The translations under genes were made by a program, and so were the position numbers. Below the pieces are notes generated by a model, which was given only the letters and a program-made list of their open reading frames with translations, was not told the DNA's origin and searched no databases. This document shows positions 11,318 to 18,417 of a stretch of 64,000 bases of DNA, piece by piece (position 1 is the stretch's first letter; each line of letters starts with the position of its first letter). The stretch is from Microbacterium algeriense (GTDB taxonomy: Bacteria > Actinomycetota > Actinomycetes > Actinomycetales > Microbacteriaceae): NCBI RefSeq assembly GCF_008868005.1, contig NZ_WAAO01000001.1, positions 1,240,001 through 1,304,000 of the forward strand, in the 5' to 3' direction.

Positions 11318-11698
11318 ATGCCCACCGGCAAGGTCAGGTTCTACGACGAAGACAAGGGTTTCGGCTTCATCGCCAGCGATGACGGCCAGGACGTCTTCCT
11401 GCACGCCTCCGCGATGCCCGCAGGCACCGCGGTCAAGGCGGGTGCGCGCGTGGAGTTCGGCGTCGCTGACGGCAAGCGCGGCCTCCAGGCGCTGTCGGTG
11501 CGCGTGCTCGAGGCGCCGCCCAGCCTCTCCAAGGCCAAGCGCAAGTCGGCCGACGACATGGCGATCATCGTCGAGGACCTCGTGAAGCTCCTCGACGGCA
11601 TCGGCGGTGACCTCCGTCGCGGGCGCTACCCCTCCTCCGGACACGGTCGCAAGATCGCGGCCGTCCTGCGCAAGGTCGCTGATGACCTCGAAGCCTGA
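11318..11698 (+). CDS. Cold-shock-domain protein with C-terminal extension
   Basis: A 126-residue protein. Residues 1-65 form a CspA-type OB fold with the RNA-binding motifs KGFGFI and DVFLHAS (about 13-30). Unlike 67-residue CspA, it has a helical extension (70-126: KRKSADDMAIIVEDLVKLLDG), the longer form usual in actinobacteria. It should bind single-stranded RNA or DNA. GAGG at 11307-11310 is the ribosome site for the ATG at 11318. Its 3' end overlaps the DUF3027 gene by 17 bp, so the two are translationally linked. Confidence 0.9.
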   Translation: MPTGKVRFYDEDKGFGFIASDDGQDVFLHASAMPAGTAVKAGARVEFGVADGKRGLQALSVRVLEAPPSLSKAKRKSADDMAIIVEDLVKLLDGIGGDLRRGRYPSSGHGRKIAAVLRKVADDLEA

Positions 11699-12284
11699 CG
11701 CCGACCCGCGTCTCCTCGAGGCGCACGACCTCGCGCTGGAAGCCCTGCGCGAGATCACTCCCGCGTCCACGATCGGACCGGCGGCGGGCTACCTCCGGGA
11801 AGAGGACGGCTCGGTGTCGCTGCGGTTCGAGAATCGGCTCGCCGGCTACCCGGGGTGGTACTGGACCGTGACCGTGGCGCGCGTCGACGACGCGGAACCC
11901 ACCGTGCTCGAGGTGGAACTGCTCCCCGGCGACGGCGCGCTGCTCGCACCGGAGTGGGTGCCGTGGGCCGAGCGCCTCGCCGAGTACCGCGCCCACCAGG
12001 CCGAGCTGGCCGAAGCGGCAGCGGCGGCCGAGGGCGATGAGGCGAACGCGGACGACGACGACCTGGACGACGACGACGACCTCGACGACGACGACCTCGA
12101 CGATGACGAAGAGGACGGCGACGCGGACATCCTGCACGCCGGGGACCTCGACGGCGTCGACATCGATGAGCTCGACGAGGCCGACGCCGACGAACTCGAC
12201 GACGCGGACGAGAGCGAAGACGACGAGGCGGAAGACGACGACGCCGACGCCCGCGCGGCGGACGTCGGCGACGAGGAGGAGTGA
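11682..12284 (+). CDS. DUF3027 family protein with acidic tail
   Basis: A 200-residue protein. Residues 1-105 match actinobacterial DUF3027 (LEALREITPASTIG, YPGWYWTVTVARVD, LLPGDGALLAPEWVPWAERL). Residues 115-200 are an extremely acidic, low-complexity tail of Asp and Glu with few other residues, possibly mimicking nucleic acid or binding a basic partner; this is inference. The ATG at 11682 sits inside the end of the cold-shock gene. The DUF3027-csp neighbourhood is conserved in actinobacteria. The repeated GACGAC codons come from the acidic tail and are not a microsatellite. Confidence 0.8.
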   Translation: MTSKPDADPRLLEAHDLALEALREITPASTIGPAAGYLREEDGSVSLRFENRLAGYPGWYWTVTVARVDDAEPTVLEVELLPGDGALLAPEWVPWAERLAEYRAHQAELAEAAAAAEGDEANADDDDLDDDDDLDDDDLDDDEEDGDADILHAGDLDGVDIDELDEADADELDDADESEDDEAEDDDADARAADVGDEEE

Positions 12285-13508: not shown

Positions 13509-14210
13509 ATGACCGATCTGATCGACACCACGGAGATGTATCTCCGCACCATCCTCGAACTCGAGGAGGAGAACATCGTCCCGCTGCGCGCGCGCATCTC
13601 GGAGCGGCTCGGTCACTCGGGTCCGACCGTCTCGCAGACCGTCGGACGCATGGAGCGCGACGGTCTCGTCATCGTCTCGGAGGACCGCACGCTCGAGCTC
13701 ACCGACGCCGGACGCCGCAAGGCCGTCGACGTCATGCGCAAGCACCGGCTCGCCGAGCGCCTGCTCTCCGACGTGATCGGGCTGGACTGGGCGTTCGTGC
13801 ACGAGGAGGCCTGTCGTTGGGAGCACGTCATGAGCGAGCAGGTGGAGCGCCGCCTGGTCGAGCTTCTCGGACACCCCACCGAATCCCCGTACGGCAACCC
13901 GATCCCCGGTCTCGATCAGCTCGGCGACATGCCGGCGCGCACCTTCGACGAGGGTGTGATCGGTCTCGTCCAGCGGCTGAATGCGGCGGGCGAACCGGTC
14001 GAGGGAACCGTGCGCCGACTGGCGGAGCCGGCCCAGGTCGACCCCGAGCTCCTGGAGCAGCTGCGCGACGCCGGCGTCGTCCCCGGCGCCCGCGGTGACT
14101 TCCGCTTCAGCGAGGGATACGTCCTCATCCAGATGGAGGGCAAGGACGACGGACTGGAGCTCCCGGTCGAGCTCGCCTCGCACATCTTCCTGGTGGGCGA
14201 GCCGGCCTGA
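13509..14210 (+). CDS. DtxR/IdeR-family metal-dependent repressor
   Basis: A 233-residue repressor that binds Fe2+ or Mn2+ and shuts off uptake genes. It has a winged HTH (about 1-70: SGPTVSQTVGRMERDGLV), a dimerisation and metal-binding domain (70-140) and an SH3-like C-terminal domain (150-230). All main metal ligands of DtxR appear at identical numbering: M10, H79, E83, C102, E105 and H106. GGAGGG at 13496-13501 is the ribosome site. The conserved C102 and the SH3 domain favour the iron-type DtxR/IdeR over MntR. A possible operator overlaps its promoter. No iron transport gene is nearby. Confidence 0.9.
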   Translation: MTDLIDTTEMYLRTILELEEENIVPLRARISERLGHSGPTVSQTVGRMERDGLVIVSEDRTLELTDAGRRKAVDVMRKHRLAERLLSDVIGLDWAFVHEEACRWEHVMSEQVERRLVELLGHPTESPYGNPIPGLDQLGDMPARTFDEGVIGLVQRLNAAGEPVEGTVRRLAEPAQVDPELLEQLRDAGVVPGARGDFRFSEGYVLIQMEGKDDGLELPVELASHIFLVGEPA

Positions 14211-14254
14211 CGAACGCCGGCATCGGCCTCCCCGAGGATTGTCAGGTTCCCAGG

Positions 14255-14283
14255 GTGACATGATCGTTATCTTCCGGTAACCT
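14255..14283 (+). promoter_or_regulatory. Promoter of the M23 peptidase gene
   Basis: GTGACA (14255-14260) and TAACCT (14278-14283) are separated by 17 bp and predict a start near 14290. GTTA and TAAC arms (GTTATCTTCCGGTAAC) surround the -10, a possible regulator site. Confidence 0.5.
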
Positions 14284-14289
14284 CGGACA

Positions 14290-14456
14290 GGTCGTCAGCG
14301 AAGAAGCCCGTTGACGGTGAACCGCGAAGATCGCCTTTCAGGCTCGTCGTCTTCGGCAGGAACGCACGAACTACCCGAGATACACCCGTGCCCCGAGAGC
14401 AGAGTGTCGACGAGCCGGCGCTACCCGAAAGCGCAGGGGCCGAGGAGGACCACGTT
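14290..14456 (+). ncRNA. Structured 5' leader of the M23 peptidase mRNA
   Basis: The predicted leader is about 167 nt. It contains a perfect 9-bp long-range stem, GGCTCGTCG (14341-14349) with CGACGAGCC (14408-14416), enclosing 58 nt; a CGTCA/TGACG hairpin upstream (near 14313-14335); a GCCT-TTC-AGGC hairpin just before the long stem; and a GCGCT/AGCGC hairpin (14418-14434) with loop ACCCGAA just before the ribosome site GAGGAGG at 14442-14448. Peptidoglycan hydrolase genes in actinobacteria often carry c-di-AMP (ydaO) riboswitches, but I cannot align the conserved ydaO core here. Class unknown. Confidence 0.45.
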
Positions 14457-15281
14457 TTGGCCGCAGACATCGAATCGCCCGCGAAGAAGACATCTGAAGA
14501 TCGAGTGCCCGCCCGGACCAAGGGTGCGCGCGCGGGTGTTCGCAAGGCCGTCAAGCCGCTCCGCTCCATCGCCATCTTCGGTGCCGTCGGCGCCCTCGTC
14601 GCCGGCATCGCCCTTCCCGCCTTCGCCTCGTCCAAGCCGACGGAAGCCGCCACCACGACGTTGCAGCAGCTCGCGGCCGTCGATGCGCAGTCCCTCGTCG
14701 TCGCCTCCCAGGCCACGGCCGCTCCGCTGAGCCGAGGCACCTTCAGCGCCACGACGCCCGAGGAGATCGAGAAGAAGAAGGCCGAGGAGGCTGCGGCCGC
14801 CCGCGCCGCAGCGGCCGCCGCGACCGCTTCCGCATCCTCGTCCACGCAGTTCAACTCCGCCGGCTACGCCCTGACCTCTCCCGGTTCGGGCGAGGTGCGC
14901 TATCCGCTGCCGATGGGCTCCTGGAACGTCAGCCGCACGGTGGGCGGTGGCCACAACGGAGCCGACATGCTCGCTCCGGCCGGCACCCCGATCTACGCGG
15001 CCGCCGGTGGCGTGGTCCGCGCCTCGGCCGAGAGCATCGGCGGATACGGCGTCTGCGTCATGCTCGACAGCGTGGTCGGCGGTCAGCGCGTGCAGACCAC
15101 CTACGGCCACATGCTGTACGGATCGCGCCAGGTGCAGGTCGGTCAGACCGTCGCCGCCGGGCAGCTCATCGGCTACGTCGGCAGCACCGGACGTTCCACC
15201 GCGAACCACCTCCACTTCGAGGTCTGGATCAACGGCGGACTCGTCGAGCCCATGTCGTGGCTCTCGGTCAACGCCGGCTGA
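14457..15281 (+). CDS. M23-family metallo-endopeptidase (LytM-like)
   Basis: A secreted or membrane-anchored peptidoglycan endopeptidase of 274 residues from the TTG at 14457. A membrane/signal segment lies at about 36-57, an Ala/Glu-rich linker at 85-135, and the LytM domain at 145-270 with zinc ligands H166 and D170 (GGHNGAD) and H253 in HLHFEVW; H218 and H251 complete the active site. I prefer TTG 14457 because GAGGAGG stands 8 nt before it. A GTG at 14388 is in frame but has no ribosome site and lies inside predicted RNA structure. It cleaves cell-wall cross-links during growth. Confidence 0.88.
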   Translation: MAADIESPAKKTSEDRVPARTKGARAGVRKAVKPLRSIAIFGAVGALVAGIALPAFASSKPTEAATTTLQQLAAVDAQSLVVASQATAAPLSRGTFSATTPEEIEKKKAEEAAAARAAAAAATASASSSTQFNSAGYALTSPGSGEVRYPLPMGSWNVSRTVGGGHNGADMLAPAGTPIYAAAGGVVRASAESIGGYGVCVMLDSVVGGQRVQTTYGHMLYGSRQVQVGQTVAAGQLIGYVGSTGRSTANHLHFEVWINGGLVEPMSWLSVNAG

Positions 15282-15340
15282 TCCGCGGACACGCCTTCCT
15301 CCATTCACCCTCCGTTCGCCCCGCATGCAGCGGAATGGGT

Positions 15341-15503
15341 TAGCCTGAACCCGTTGTCGTACAGGCGGGAGAGGCTGATGGAGCGAATACCGAGCATCCG
15401 AACCATGGATGCCCTCGGTCGTCACGTCCTTCTGCATAGCCTGCGGGGAAGCCACGGCGCTGCCGTGCGCGAAAGGCGCTGTCTCTAGACGGCGCCTTTT
15501 TTC
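15341..15503 (+). ncRNA. Candidate small RNA or terminated leader upstream of HNH gene
   Basis: The 308-bp gap after the M23 gene holds no ORF but a series of strong RNA structures. A TAGCCT box at 15341-15346 predicts a start near 15353. A hairpin at 15389-15419 has stem ACCGAG+CATCC against GGATG-CC-CTCGGT. A second, CACGGC-GCT-GCCGTG, spans 15453-15467. The last is a perfect 12-bp terminator stem at 15472-15499 with T residues to 15502. The product would be about 150 nt. It could be a free sRNA or an attenuator for the HNH gene, which begins 87 nt later. It does not match 6C RNA, SRP RNA, RNase P or glycine riboswitch cores that I know. Confidence 0.5.
15472..15502 (+). terminator. Strong Rho-independent terminator
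   Basis: AAAGGCGCTGTC pairs with GACGGCGCCTTT (one T-G pair) around a TCTA loop and is followed by a run of T. It ends the candidate small RNA. Confidence 0.9.
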
Positions 15504-15589
15504 GTCCTCGCGATCGCTCTGCCTCCTGCACGACTTCGTGTGAGTCGAGAGTGCCGGGAAGCCGTCCCGGCGGATCGAGAGGATGACGA

Positions 15590-16087
15590 ATGCGCACACT
15601 GGTCCTGAATGCCGGATACGAGCCGCTCGCGATCGTGTCGTTCAAACGAGCCCTGGTGCTCGTCATGAACGACAAGGCGACCGTGATCGAACGCGTGGAG
15701 GACGATCCCGTCTGGGGCTCCCACGGCGTCTACGATCGTCCGGCCGTCATCATCCTCGCCCGGTACGTCCGGGTGCCGACGAGCAGACGCGTCCCGGTCA
15801 CCCGGCGTGGCGTGCTCCGGCGGGACAACCACCGCTGCGGTTACTGCGGCAAGGCGGCCTCCACGATCGACCACATCCTGCCGCGTTCGCGCGGGGGAGC
15901 CGACTCCTGGGAGAACCTCGTGGCCTGCTGCCTGCGCTGCAACAACGTCAAGAGCGACCGCACCCCGCAGGAGATGCGCTGGCAGCTTCGCATCACCCCG
16001 CGTCCGCCGCACGGCACCGCCTGGACGGTGCGCGGCACGGAGCGCAGCGATCCCCGGTGGGAGCCGTACCTCGCACTGGCCGCATGA
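15590..16087 (+). CDS. HNH endonuclease family protein
   Basis: A 165-residue protein with an actinobacterial N-terminal domain (MRTLVLNAGYEPL, 1-65) and a C-terminal HNH nuclease domain with zinc pairs C83-x2-C86 and C114-x2-C117, catalytic D94-H95 (STIDHILPRSRGG) and NNVKSDRTP. GAGAGG just upstream of the ATG is the ribosome site. Many actinobacteria carry one such chromosomal gene; it is not tied to a mobile element here and its cellular target is unknown. The 5' UTR contains CCGGGA-AGCCG-TCCCGG at 15554-15570 after the upstream terminator. Confidence 0.88.
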   Translation: MRTLVLNAGYEPLAIVSFKRALVLVMNDKATVIERVEDDPVWGSHGVYDRPAVIILARYVRVPTSRRVPVTRRGVLRRDNHRCGYCGKAASTIDHILPRSRGGADSWENLVACCLRCNNVKSDRTPQEMRWQLRITPRPPHGTAWTVRGTERSDPRWEPYLALAA

Positions 16088-16108
16088 GGCCTGTGCGCTA
16101 CGGGCTGC

Positions 16109-16137
16109 GTGCCCCCGGTCCCGTAGACTGGGGGCAC
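16109..16137 (+). promoter_or_regulatory. tRNA-Arg promoter inside an inverted repeat
   Basis: GTGCCCCC (16109-16116) and GGGGGCAC (16130-16137) are perfect 8-bp inverted arms directly abutting the tRNA. The -10 box TAGACT (16124-16129) lies in the loop. The repeat may also act as terminator for the HNH gene. Confidence 0.5.
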
Positions 16138-16211
16138 GCCCTCGTAGCTCAGCAGGATAGAGCAGCCCTCTCCTAAAGGGCAGGTCGCAGGTTCGAATCC
16201 TGTCGAGGGCA
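16138..16211 (+). tRNA. tRNA-Arg (anticodon CCT)
   Basis: A complete cloverleaf of 74 nt: acceptor GCCCTCG/CGAGGGC, D arm GCTC...GAGC, anticodon stem GCCCT/AGGGC with loop CTCCTAA giving anticodon CCT for AGG codons, and T arm with GTTCGAATC. The terminal CCA is not encoded. Confidence 0.96.
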
Positions 16212-16230
16212 CCTCGATCCGGTGCGGTGC

Positions 16231-18417
16231 TCAGTCCTCACCTTTGCGCCACAGCTTCGACGGCCACCAGATGGCCTTGCCGATGTCGTAGGTCAGCGCG
16301 GGGACGAGCAGCGAACGTACCACGAAGGTGTCGAGCAGCACGCCGAACGCGACGATGAACGCGAGCTGTACGAGGAACAGGATCGGGATCACCGAGAGCG
16401 CGGCGAAGGTCGCCGCGAGGACGAGCCCGGCCGAGGTGATCACGCCGCCCGTGATCGACAGCCCGCGGAGGATGCCCTCGCGCGTGCCGTGCGCCTTCGA
16501 CTCCTCCCGCACCCTGGTCATCAGGAAGATGTTGTAGTCGATGCCGAGCGCGACGAGGAACACGAACCCGAAGAGCGGGACGGCGGGATCGGCGCCCGGG
16601 AAGTCGAAGATCCCGTTGAACACCAGGGCCGAGACGCCCAGCGCGGTACCGAACGAGAGCACCGTCGTGAGGATCAGCAGCACCGGCGCGAGGATCGAGC
16701 GCAGCAGCAGCATCAGGATCAGCATGATGACGACGAGGATGACCGGGATGATGAGGGTGCGGTCGTGGATCGATGCATCGTTCGTGTCCACGGATGTCGC
16801 GGTCACCCCGCCCACCAGCGCGTCGATGTCGTCGAGGTCGCTGCGGAGCTCACGGACGGTCGAGGCGGCTTCCTCGGAGTCCGCCGCGTCCGTGAGCGTT
16901 CCCTGCAGCAGCACCTCGCCGTCGACCGTGGTCGGCTCGGGAGCCGGAGTGCCCGGAGCGCCGATCGGGGCGATGCCGTCCTCCGTCACCGGGGCCGTAC
17001 CGCTCGGGGAGTCGGCAGCCGTGACGGAGACGCCGTCGACGCCGTCGTTCGCGAGCAGGACGTCAGCGGCGTCCTGCAGCCGATCCTCGTCGACGACCAC
17101 GTACACGGGGCTGCCGGATCCGCCGGGGAAGTGCTCGCCGAGCGCCACCTGGCCGTCGCGGGCCTCGGACGCGCCGAGCACCAGGTCGGACTGCGGCACC
17201 CCGTCGGCCCGGAGCTGGGTGATGCCGGCGGCCCCCACGAGGAGGACGATCGTGGTCACGATCCAGATCACCCGCGGGCGTCGCTTGATGAGTCCGGCCA
17301 GTCGCGCCCAGAGGCCCGTGGTGCGCATGCCGTGCTCGGCGGCGACGACCTCGGGCTCGAACCGGGGGCGCCGCGGCCAGAACACCGCGCGCCCGAACAG
17401 CAGCAGCAGCGAGGGCAGCAGCGTCAGTGCCGACAGCATCGCGAACACGATCCCGATGGCCGCGACCGGTCCCAGCGTGCTGTTGGACTTGAGGTCGCTG
17501 AGCAGCAGGCACAGCAGACCGGCGATCACGGTTCCGCCGGAGGCGACGATGGGCTCGACGGAGCCCTTCCACGCGGCGAGGAGAGCGGTGCCCTTGTCCT
17601 GCGCGACGCGCAGCTCCTCGCGGAAGCGGGCGACGAGGAGCAGCGCGTAGTCCGTCGCCGCTCCGATCACGAGGATGAAGAGGATGCCCTGCGTCTGGCC
17701 GCTGAGCAGCAGCACCTCGAACTTCGCCAGCCACCACACCACGAGGAGCGCGACGCAGAGCGCGAACAGGCTCGTCGACAGCACCACCAGCGGCAGCAGG
17801 AGCGAGCGGTAGACCAGCACGAGGATCACGAGGACCGCCAGCAGGGCGACTCCGAGGAGGAGACCGTCGATGCCCGCGAACCCGGCCACGAGGTCGGCGC
17901 TGAGCCCGGCCGGTCCGGTGATGTAGACGGTCACGCCGTCGGGCATGCCGGAGCGCAGCTCCTCTCCGAGAGCGGAGACCGTGTCCGCGAGCTCGGCGTC
18001 GCTGTCGATCGGGATGAAGGCCTGCACGGCACGTCCGTCCTCGGAGGGGAGCGCGGGCGAGACATCGTCCGTCACCCCCTCGACGTCGGGGGCGCCGGCG
18101 ACAGCGTCGGAGATCGCATCCAGCTCGGTCGCGCTGAGCTCGTCGTCGGAGGTGAACACGGCGATCGCCGGAATCGCGTCGCTGTCGTTGAACTCGCCCA
18201 GCAGCGCCTGCACCTTCGTCGCATCCGCGGACTCGGGCAGGTACGTCGTCTGATCGTTGGAGGAGACCTCGTCCACCTTGCCGAACAGCGGTCCGCCGAA
18301 CGAGGCCCCGGCCAGCCACACGAGGATCAGCGCCACCGGGATGAGGACGCGCACCCACGAGTGGCGTCGCGAACGCTCCCTGGTCGGCGGGGTCGGCGGC
18401 AGATCGGGGCGGGACAT
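16231..18417 (-). CDS. MMPL-family RND transporter at the end of the carotenoid operon
   Basis: A 728-residue MmpL-type membrane protein. It shows the two-fold repeat of one TM, a large extracytoplasmic loop and five TM helices, twice: TM1 at about 23-43, loop 44-190, TM2-6 at 190-340; then the repeat from about 375, with loop 395-555 and final TMs to 720. The proton-relay-type motif GAATDYALLL and the second-half GIDYNIFLM are present. Start ATG 18417 follows GGAAGGAA. In Corynebacterium an MMPL gene also sits within the crt operon, so transport of a carotenoid or related isoprenoid lipid is plausible but unproven. Confidence 0.88.
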   Translation of the reverse strand: MSRPDLPPTPPTRERSRRHSWVRVLIPVALILVWLAGASFGGPLFGKVDEVSSNDQTTYLPESADATKVQALLGEFNDSDAIPAIAVFTSDDELSATELDAISDAVAGAPDVEGVTDDVSPALPSEDGRAVQAFIPIDSDAELADTVSALGEELRSGMPDGVTVYITGPAGLSADLVAGFAGIDGLLLGVALLAVLVILVLVYRSLLLPLVVLSTSLFALCVALLVVWWLAKFEVLLLSGQTQGILFILVIGAATDYALLLVARFREELRVAQDKGTALLAAWKGSVEPIVASGGTVIAGLLCLLLSDLKSNSTLGPVAAIGIVFAMLSALTLLPSLLLLFGRAVFWPRRPRFEPEVVAAEHGMRTTGLWARLAGLIKRRPRVIWIVTTIVLLVGAAGITQLRADGVPQSDLVLGASEARDGQVALGEHFPGGSGSPVYVVVDEDRLQDAADVLLANDGVDGVSVTAADSPSGTAPVTEDGIAPIGAPGTPAPEPTTVDGEVLLQGTLTDAADSEEAASTVRELRSDLDDIDALVGGVTATSVDTNDASIHDRTLIIPVILVVIMLILMLLLRSILAPVLLILTTVLSFGTALGVSALVFNGIFDFPGADPAVPLFGFVFLVALGIDYNIFLMTRVREESKAHGTREGILRGLSITGGVITSAGLVLAATFAALSVIPILFLVQLAFIVAFGVLLDTFVVRSLLVPALTYDIGKAIWWPSKLWRKGED

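Follow-up and report, generated by a model that had tools for sequence, protein, structure and literature searches.

A conserved upstream open reading frame ending on a terminator-like hairpin in the putative attenuating leader of an HNH-family gene of Microbacterium

In the window, the whole 64,000-nucleotide stretch of Microbacterium algeriense DNA that was analysed, genes for an M23 peptidase (14388-15281) and for a protein of the HNH family, a DNA-cutting type (15590-16087), flank a stretch of hairpins. Part of this stretch, 15341-15503, had been set out in a preliminary description as a gap without open reading frames. The features now recognised between the two genes, together with the HNH gene itself, are as follows.

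15340-15346, + strand: -10-like promoter element TTAGCCT, 38 nt 5' of the start of the upstream open reading frame (uORF); the motif is kept in relatives
15367-15374, + strand: putative Shine-Dalgarno sequence of the uORF, GGGAGAGG, identified from the sequence and purine-rich in aligned relatives
15378-15488, + strand: uORF of 36 codons, MERIPSIRTMDALGRHVLLHSLRGSHGAAVRERRCL, with ATG at 15378 and TAG at 15486-15488 in the terminator loop
15394-15412, + strand: hairpin 1, GCAUCC-GAACCAU-GGAUGC, within the uORF, with AU/GC and UA/CG exchanges across genera
15453-15467, + strand: hairpin 2, CACGGC-GCU-GCCGUG, within the uORF, covarying in Microbacterium
15472-15502, + strand: intrinsic-terminator-like hairpin of 12-13 bp with T6, recognised by its fold, its pair exchanges and the uORF stop in its loop
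15545-15578, + strand: HNH leader hairpin, with an apical stem at 15552-15572, the pentaloop AGCCG at 15560-15564 and an outer stem UCGA/UCGA
15577-15583, + strand: putative HNH Shine-Dalgarno sequence, GAGAGGA, which shares bases with the leader hairpin at the 3' edge of the latter and is alike in both alignments of that hairpin (A2 and A3, below)
15590-16087, + strand: HNH-family gene of 165 aa, matching Pfam HNH_5 and HNH, presumed to be the regulated gene

The interval originally delimited does contain the three hairpins, but its 5' end falls within the promoter-like TTAGCCT, outside the presumed transcript. Nor is it free of open reading frames, as the 36-codon uORF, which is preceded by a Shine-Dalgarno-like sequence and carries coding signals, runs through all three hairpins and ends within the loop of the last. 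The nearest relatives of the HNH protein are from Microbacterium. Directly 3' of its gene lies a tRNA-Arg(CCT) (16138-16213); a role for this tRNA in the system, in conjunction with an AGG codon in the uORF, was rejected because it is found near the HNH gene in only 13 of the 42 loci scanned. The AGG codon itself is not kept, many of the peptides ending in the other frame or in WRCL. Elsewhere in the window, an open reading frame at 11607-12284 has an extreme abundance of Asp and Glu in its C-terminal half.

The predicted minimum free energy of 15341-15505 is -77.8 kcal/mol, compared with -62.0 ± 4.5 kcal/mol for shuffled sequences (z = -3.6), and none of 200 shuffles reached so low a value, in agreement with the three consecutive hairpins of the preliminary description. 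Its view of the last as terminator-like, with a T run, is likewise borne out by a predicted stem of 13 bp (12 bp by hand count, 15472-15499) and T6 at 15497-15502. A simple consensus scan of 14000-16300 reported no terminator-like site. Compensatory changes in relatives, whose absence would have counted as a refutation according to the same description, were found both in Microbacterium and across genera. In an alignment of 44 Microbacterium sequences (A4, the window with 43 of 79 relatives, the rows left out including ones with inserts or without the start), 9 of the 24 pairs in the three helices have changes on both sides. This amounts to 40 both-sided-change cells, compared with 8.3 ± 4.7 in shuffles, which do not preserve relatedness among the sequences, and 0-9 in slid controls. 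Hairpin 1 is paired in 98.1% of the cells of this alignment; for hairpin 2 the figure is 91.7%, with both-sided changes in four of six pairs. Across genera (A5, the window with 47 of 49 uORF starts chosen by motif and by eye, L185 and L188 being left out), hairpin 1 shows exchanges of AU with GC and of UA with CG, giving 23 cells against 7.5 ± 2.3 in shuffles and 2-14 in slid controls; two of the five measures fail to stand out, 82 and 39 of 500 shuffles reaching them. Its pairing is kept despite residue changes in the encoded peptide from I..D to V..D, A..G and T..G.

The wider family was studied through leaders cut from 104 Microbacteriaceae loci, of which 95 are distinct. A 9-bp terminator core is present in 86 of these, the type of pair varying at core positions 4, 6 and 8, and a hairpin of at least 9 bp with a T tract occurs in 93, compared with a shuffled mean of 6.3. 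On this comparative evidence, the hairpins are real and covarying. The strict pattern of the terminator hairpin is found at a single place in its own genome. Treating the terminator sequence as a unique signature was abandoned, since a looser pattern matches 80 of 99 genomes of the order and is common in GC-rich relatives.

The uORF is conserved within the genus, where its substitution pattern is that of a coding sequence. Over 27 codons of 44 sequences from Microbacterium, the uORF frame has a pN/pS of 0.57 (0.34-0.88 by codon bootstrap), compared with 1.21 and 1.01 for the two remaining forward frames. In a previous set of 44 sequences the uORF frame gave 0.61; one reverse frame of that set also has a low pN/pS (0.68), yet contains stops in 23 of the 44. 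For codons 5-20 the value is 0.27, against 1.58 and 1.27, and for codons 13-20, which lie outside hairpin 1, it is 0.30, against 1.60 and 1.25. In the later set, internal stops are absent from the frame in all 44 sequences and interrupt the other forward frames in 13 and 5 of them. The uORF is thus apparently translated. A conserved start and a coding pattern in the leader, as expected of a short-ORF attenuator, are accordingly seen across the genus, and a terminator-like hairpin, as expected of control by intrinsic termination, lies between the uORF and the HNH gene. By eye, the MDALGRHVL of the peptide is similar to the start of SpeD, but this identity was dropped for lack of a Pfam match; neither Pfam nor NCBIfam gave a match for the uORF peptide of the window or for three related peptides.

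In 77 of 80 Microbacterium sequences (the window and 79 others), the uORF both begins with ATG or GTG and ends inside the terminator loop, these related sequences not representing independent events. The three exceptions are L078, in which bases are masked, L091, which has no start codon at the aligned place and stops in the loop, and L094, whose frame reads beyond the terminator hairpin. The stop itself falls in the loop, within 1-2 nt, in 78 of the 80, and is reached through two different reading frames (57 and 21 sequences) that give distinct peptide ends, of the RRCL or KALS type. This implies that the position of the stop is maintained, whereas the end of the peptide is not.

Within the genus, a BLAST match to the leader (E ≤ 0.001, partial in some cases) is present in 136 of 149 genomes, the window's own included. 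A peptide profile finds the uORF in 4 of the 13 genomes without such a match; among the nine of these that are of good quality, five also have no peptide match. When loci were instead fetched by the HNH protein, 79 of 80 carried the stretch 5' of HNH, the remaining one (L036) having just 43 bases upstream of the gene. The HNH gene is present in 176 of the 199 Microbacteriaceae genomes searched, and many other genera of the family keep a uORF and a terminator-like hairpin 5' of it. In a family-wide search with the peptide profile, most of the hits outside the genus were weak; HNH is contained in the ten best, and in 18 of the 30 loci fetched. A motif search finds the start, the hairpin 1 motif and a uORF in 48 of the 95 distinct family leaders, to which profile hits add further uORF leaders (e.g. 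L116, L117, L119 and L120).

A stricter search called both a uORF and a downstream terminator in 40 of the 95. The stop lies -1 to +4 nt from the base of the hairpin in 21 of these, in the loop in nine (three being loci of the same genus), after the hairpin in eight and before it in one, the last uORF running into HNH. The 55 leaders left uncalled comprise 46 with no uORF, seven in which the hairpin was picked upstream and two with no terminator. The peptide changes quickly between genera, and in some genera, as well as in a His-rich group from another family, the uORF continues beyond the terminator. The His-rich candidates (L265, L278, L279, L281 and L282) extend through the terminator to the HNH start in another frame; their proposed function as His sensors is unsupported, there being no coding signal (pN/pS of 1.12 over five unaligned sequences). 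In three loci from families other than Microbacteriaceae, c-di-AMP riboswitches lie within approximately 1.5 kb 5' of HNH (L263 4-150, L265 3123-3250 on the minus strand, and L270 126-304).

The gene preceding the leader is much less constant. Among 53 family and order loci, an M23 gene lies within approximately 370 nt 5' of HNH in only four, all from the same genus, and approximately 1.4 kb upstream in another four; it was not seen in the other 45. As the upstream gene varies while the leader stays with HNH, the association is with HNH.

The distribution of promoter-like sites suggests how this gene may be transcribed. The motif YTANNNT occurs 20-60 nt 5' of the uORF start in all 79 Microbacterium leaders, in 59 of them as TTAGCCT, and BTANNNT precedes the uORF in all 49 chosen family leaders, against a shuffled expectation of 14.5. 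A sigma-70 consensus scan of 14000-16300 gave no site, including at TTAGCCT itself (15340-15346). Between the terminator and HNH, a promoter-like site is present in only 2 of 72 Microbacterium leaders and in 1 of the 41 family leaders in which both limits could be placed. This rarity implies that HNH is probably read through the terminator, which would make the leader an attenuator: the simplest arrangement is transcription from a promoter upstream of the uORF, although a promoter lacking the TANNNT motif may lie 3' of the terminator. Of the two functions originally offered for the hairpins, attenuation of the HNH gene is consequently the better supported, the uORF and terminator also remaining with HNH across genera. 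Of 43 leaders from the order's other families, 29 contain a terminator-like hairpin with 9 bp or more (shuffled mean 2.7), some of these, judging from their position, belonging to the preceding gene. In nine of the 43, just 14-34 nt separate the end of such a hairpin from the second HNH codon, the start codon being uncertain in one of the nine (L269).

A second conserved structure lies between the terminator and the HNH start. This hairpin, with an AGCC[G/A] pentaloop, adjoins the HNH Shine-Dalgarno sequence (15545-15583 in all). In 64 selected sequences, pairing holds in 94.6% of the apical-helix cells, six of the seven pairs having both-sided changes, and in 69.8% of the outer-helix cells; the two helices together have 94 both-sided-change cells, compared with 29 ± 4 in shuffles and 21-37 in slid controls. 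These 64 rows (A3) derive from an alignment of 91 of the 104 dereplicated segments (A2, in which the window is represented as L158), after omission of 12 rows with stems shorter than 4 bp, the mis-assigned L091 and 14 near-duplicates, and the pairing percentages are inflated because short-stem and similar rows were left out. The larger alignment itself omits seven Microbacterium rows and six leaders in which no hairpin is obvious (L200, L205, L213, L217, L218 and L238), of which L217 and L238 show a variant of it by eye. Free of this selection is a count of the loop alone: AGCC[GA] on at least 5 bp occurs in 68 of the 85 leaders that remain of the 104 after dereplication, not chosen for pairing, whereas permuted control loop words average 0.12 and reach 2 at most.

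The hairpin has one copy in its own genome, and under strict filters its covariance model finds one place in each of 8 of the 119 order genomes, all of them Microbacteriaceae. Extending the model beyond the family was given up, as two weak hits elsewhere in the phylum have no HNH nearby. Among 38 leaders of other families, the loop is closed by 5 bp or more in just 2 and by 4 bp or more in 4 (control maximum 1). In L272 and L273 the sole terminator called is 173-191 nt upstream, and a GAGGGC-AGCCG-GCCCUC hairpin still precedes HNH.

The HNH protein matches Pfam HNH_5 (4.4e-13; 49.4 bits against a cut-off of 27.5) and HNH (8.1e-13). The nearest NCBIfam models are Cas9d (5.8e-14) and IscB (6.5e-14), both far below their whole-protein cut-offs, and the nearest PDB chain, through the HNH part, is TbaIscB (3.4e-11). 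Only HNH models match the 165 residues, no RuvC being found. Over residues 4-35 there is a weak, ungapped match to the PLMP domain of five IscBs of the same phylum (hhalign P 3.3e-4, probability 38%, 32 columns); Pfam, NCBIfam and a profile search of the PDB showed no PLMP match. Proteins combining PLMP and HNH are termed IshB-like, and the HNH domain of such proteins is present here. The window's own genome gave no guided_IscB match at E ≤ 1e-25. An AlphaFold model had a mean pLDDT of 51 and was set aside.

According to two reports on IsrB, its PLMP domain touches the omega RNA at the terminal hairpin, the one bearing the Shine-Dalgarno sequence of the gene, and a part for this contact in regulating IsrB expression was suggested (PMC9581776, PMC9640706). 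By comparison, the HNH leader is similar in having a hairpin directly 5' of the gene that touches the Shine-Dalgarno sequence, and the protein in having an HNH domain nearest to those of Cas9d and IscB, as well as the weak N-terminal PLMP-like match. It differs in that the HNH domain is found alone, with no RuvC, in a protein of 165 aa, and in the single copy of the hairpin in its genome.

The preliminary description had been unable to match the hairpins to a known family, and this holds for Rfam 15: only tRNAs reach the cut-off in the window, no family falling on the leader. A permissive search of 15270-15620 produced three hits below the cut-off (best E 0.16, 8.6 bits against 55), and in 18 related loci only c-di-AMP riboswitches, away from the leader, were found. 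The arrangement resembles that of established attenuators. The ilvB-II motif, or Corynebacterium ilvBNC leader, is described as actinobacterial, occurring once per genome before one gene and comprising a uORF together with a terminator stem that covaries and carries a U tract (PMC10272879). The HNH leader is likewise an actinobacterial motif with a uORF and a covarying, U-tracted stem before one gene. It differs in its HNH target, in a uORF that is not rich in branched-chain residues, in the position of the stop on the terminator, in the extra hairpin before the start codon and in that no antiterminator was found. In the whiB7/wblC leader, as described (PMC11550727, PMC13236596), full translation of the uORF promotes the terminator and disturbed translation leads to an antiterminator. 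Here too an actinobacterial uORF is combined with an intrinsic-terminator-like hairpin, and control of readthrough is predicted for the HNH leader as well, the target being unrelated and the predicted direction opposite.

Taken together, 15341-15503 probably comprises the promoter and, after it, the attenuating first half of the HNH 5' leader, switched by translation of the uORF preventing termination. Transcription would start just 3' of 15346 and the short uORF would be translated; as the intrinsic terminator overlaps the uORF end, a terminating ribosome would sit on it. With no ribosome at the uORF end, the terminator would form and only a short RNA of approximately 150 nt be made, whereas a ribosome following tightly behind the RNA polymerase would occupy the uORF end, block the terminator and allow the polymerase to continue into HNH, in response to a presumed signal. 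The AGCC[G/A] hairpin by the HNH Shine-Dalgarno sequence would add translational control, possibly through binding the HNH protein itself. When a ribosome was placed on the window leader, the terminator was lost at tested codons 31, 34 and 37 only and still formed at tested codons 1 to 28, in one sequence and under one folding model. This favours a switch in which a ribosome at the uORF end prevents termination, a direction that we infer to be opposite to that of ilvB and whiB7/wblC. Folding the window sequence with the placed ribosome yielded no antiterminator, and the model hence needs tight coupling of ribosome and polymerase.

A different explanation, which seems unlikely, is that the uORF is an independent gene for a 36-aa protein with an ordinary terminator, HNH being transcribed from elsewhere. 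It is consistent with purifying selection acting on the part of the peptide that lies outside hairpin 1, with the gene having a promoter-like site and terminator of its own, and with the invariance of R8, T9, L13, V17, L18 and H20 among 42 uORF peptides (A1). However, the peptide changes fast between genera and is read to its end in two frames within the genus, hairpin pairing is maintained where amino acids change, a promoter-like site is rare 5' of HNH, and the best peptide matches lie upstream of HNH.

It is improbable that the leader works in the classical manner of ilvB or whiB7/wblC, with full translation favouring the terminator and a stalled ribosome releasing an antiterminator. The general anatomy is shared with ilvB-II, ilvB1 and whiB7/wblC as described, but the persistence of the terminator with a ribosome at tested codons 1 to 28, in the one sequence and folding model used, argues against such a mechanism. 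A free, untranslated small RNA of approximately 150 nt acting in trans, with an incidental open frame, the other function originally offered, would fit a compact, stable, terminated and covarying RNA and would equal the terminated product, yet is very improbable given that its body is apparently translated, the constraint being frame-specific, with a start codon, a Shine-Dalgarno-like sequence, a stop on the terminator and a linkage to HNH.

Beyond the preferred reading, in which translation of the uORF prevents termination, the comparison with IsrB allows a more speculative proposal, which we consider possible but doubtful. The HNH protein could be a chromosomal relative of IscB, domesticated and of PLMP-HNH type, which has retained its binding to the AGCC[G/A] hairpin by its own Shine-Dalgarno sequence, with its expression also gated by the translated attenuator. 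The leader could then be the remnant of an omega-RNA-like partnership turned to autoregulation, or the RNA part of a working ribonucleoprotein.

Attenuators based on uORFs are already known, and what is new here is that the target is HNH, that the stop stays on the terminator whichever frame is used, that no antiterminator was found and that a second hairpin is present; in the open-access PMC literature, no paper was found that joins an HNH endonuclease, transcription attenuation and a uORF. This two-stage conserved HNH leader, absent from the RNA family library searched, overlays RNA structure and coding in the same bases. It raises two questions: can intrinsic termination in actinobacteria be averted by translation, instead of being promoted by it, and is an RNA partner retained by IscB-like HNH proteins that stand alone?
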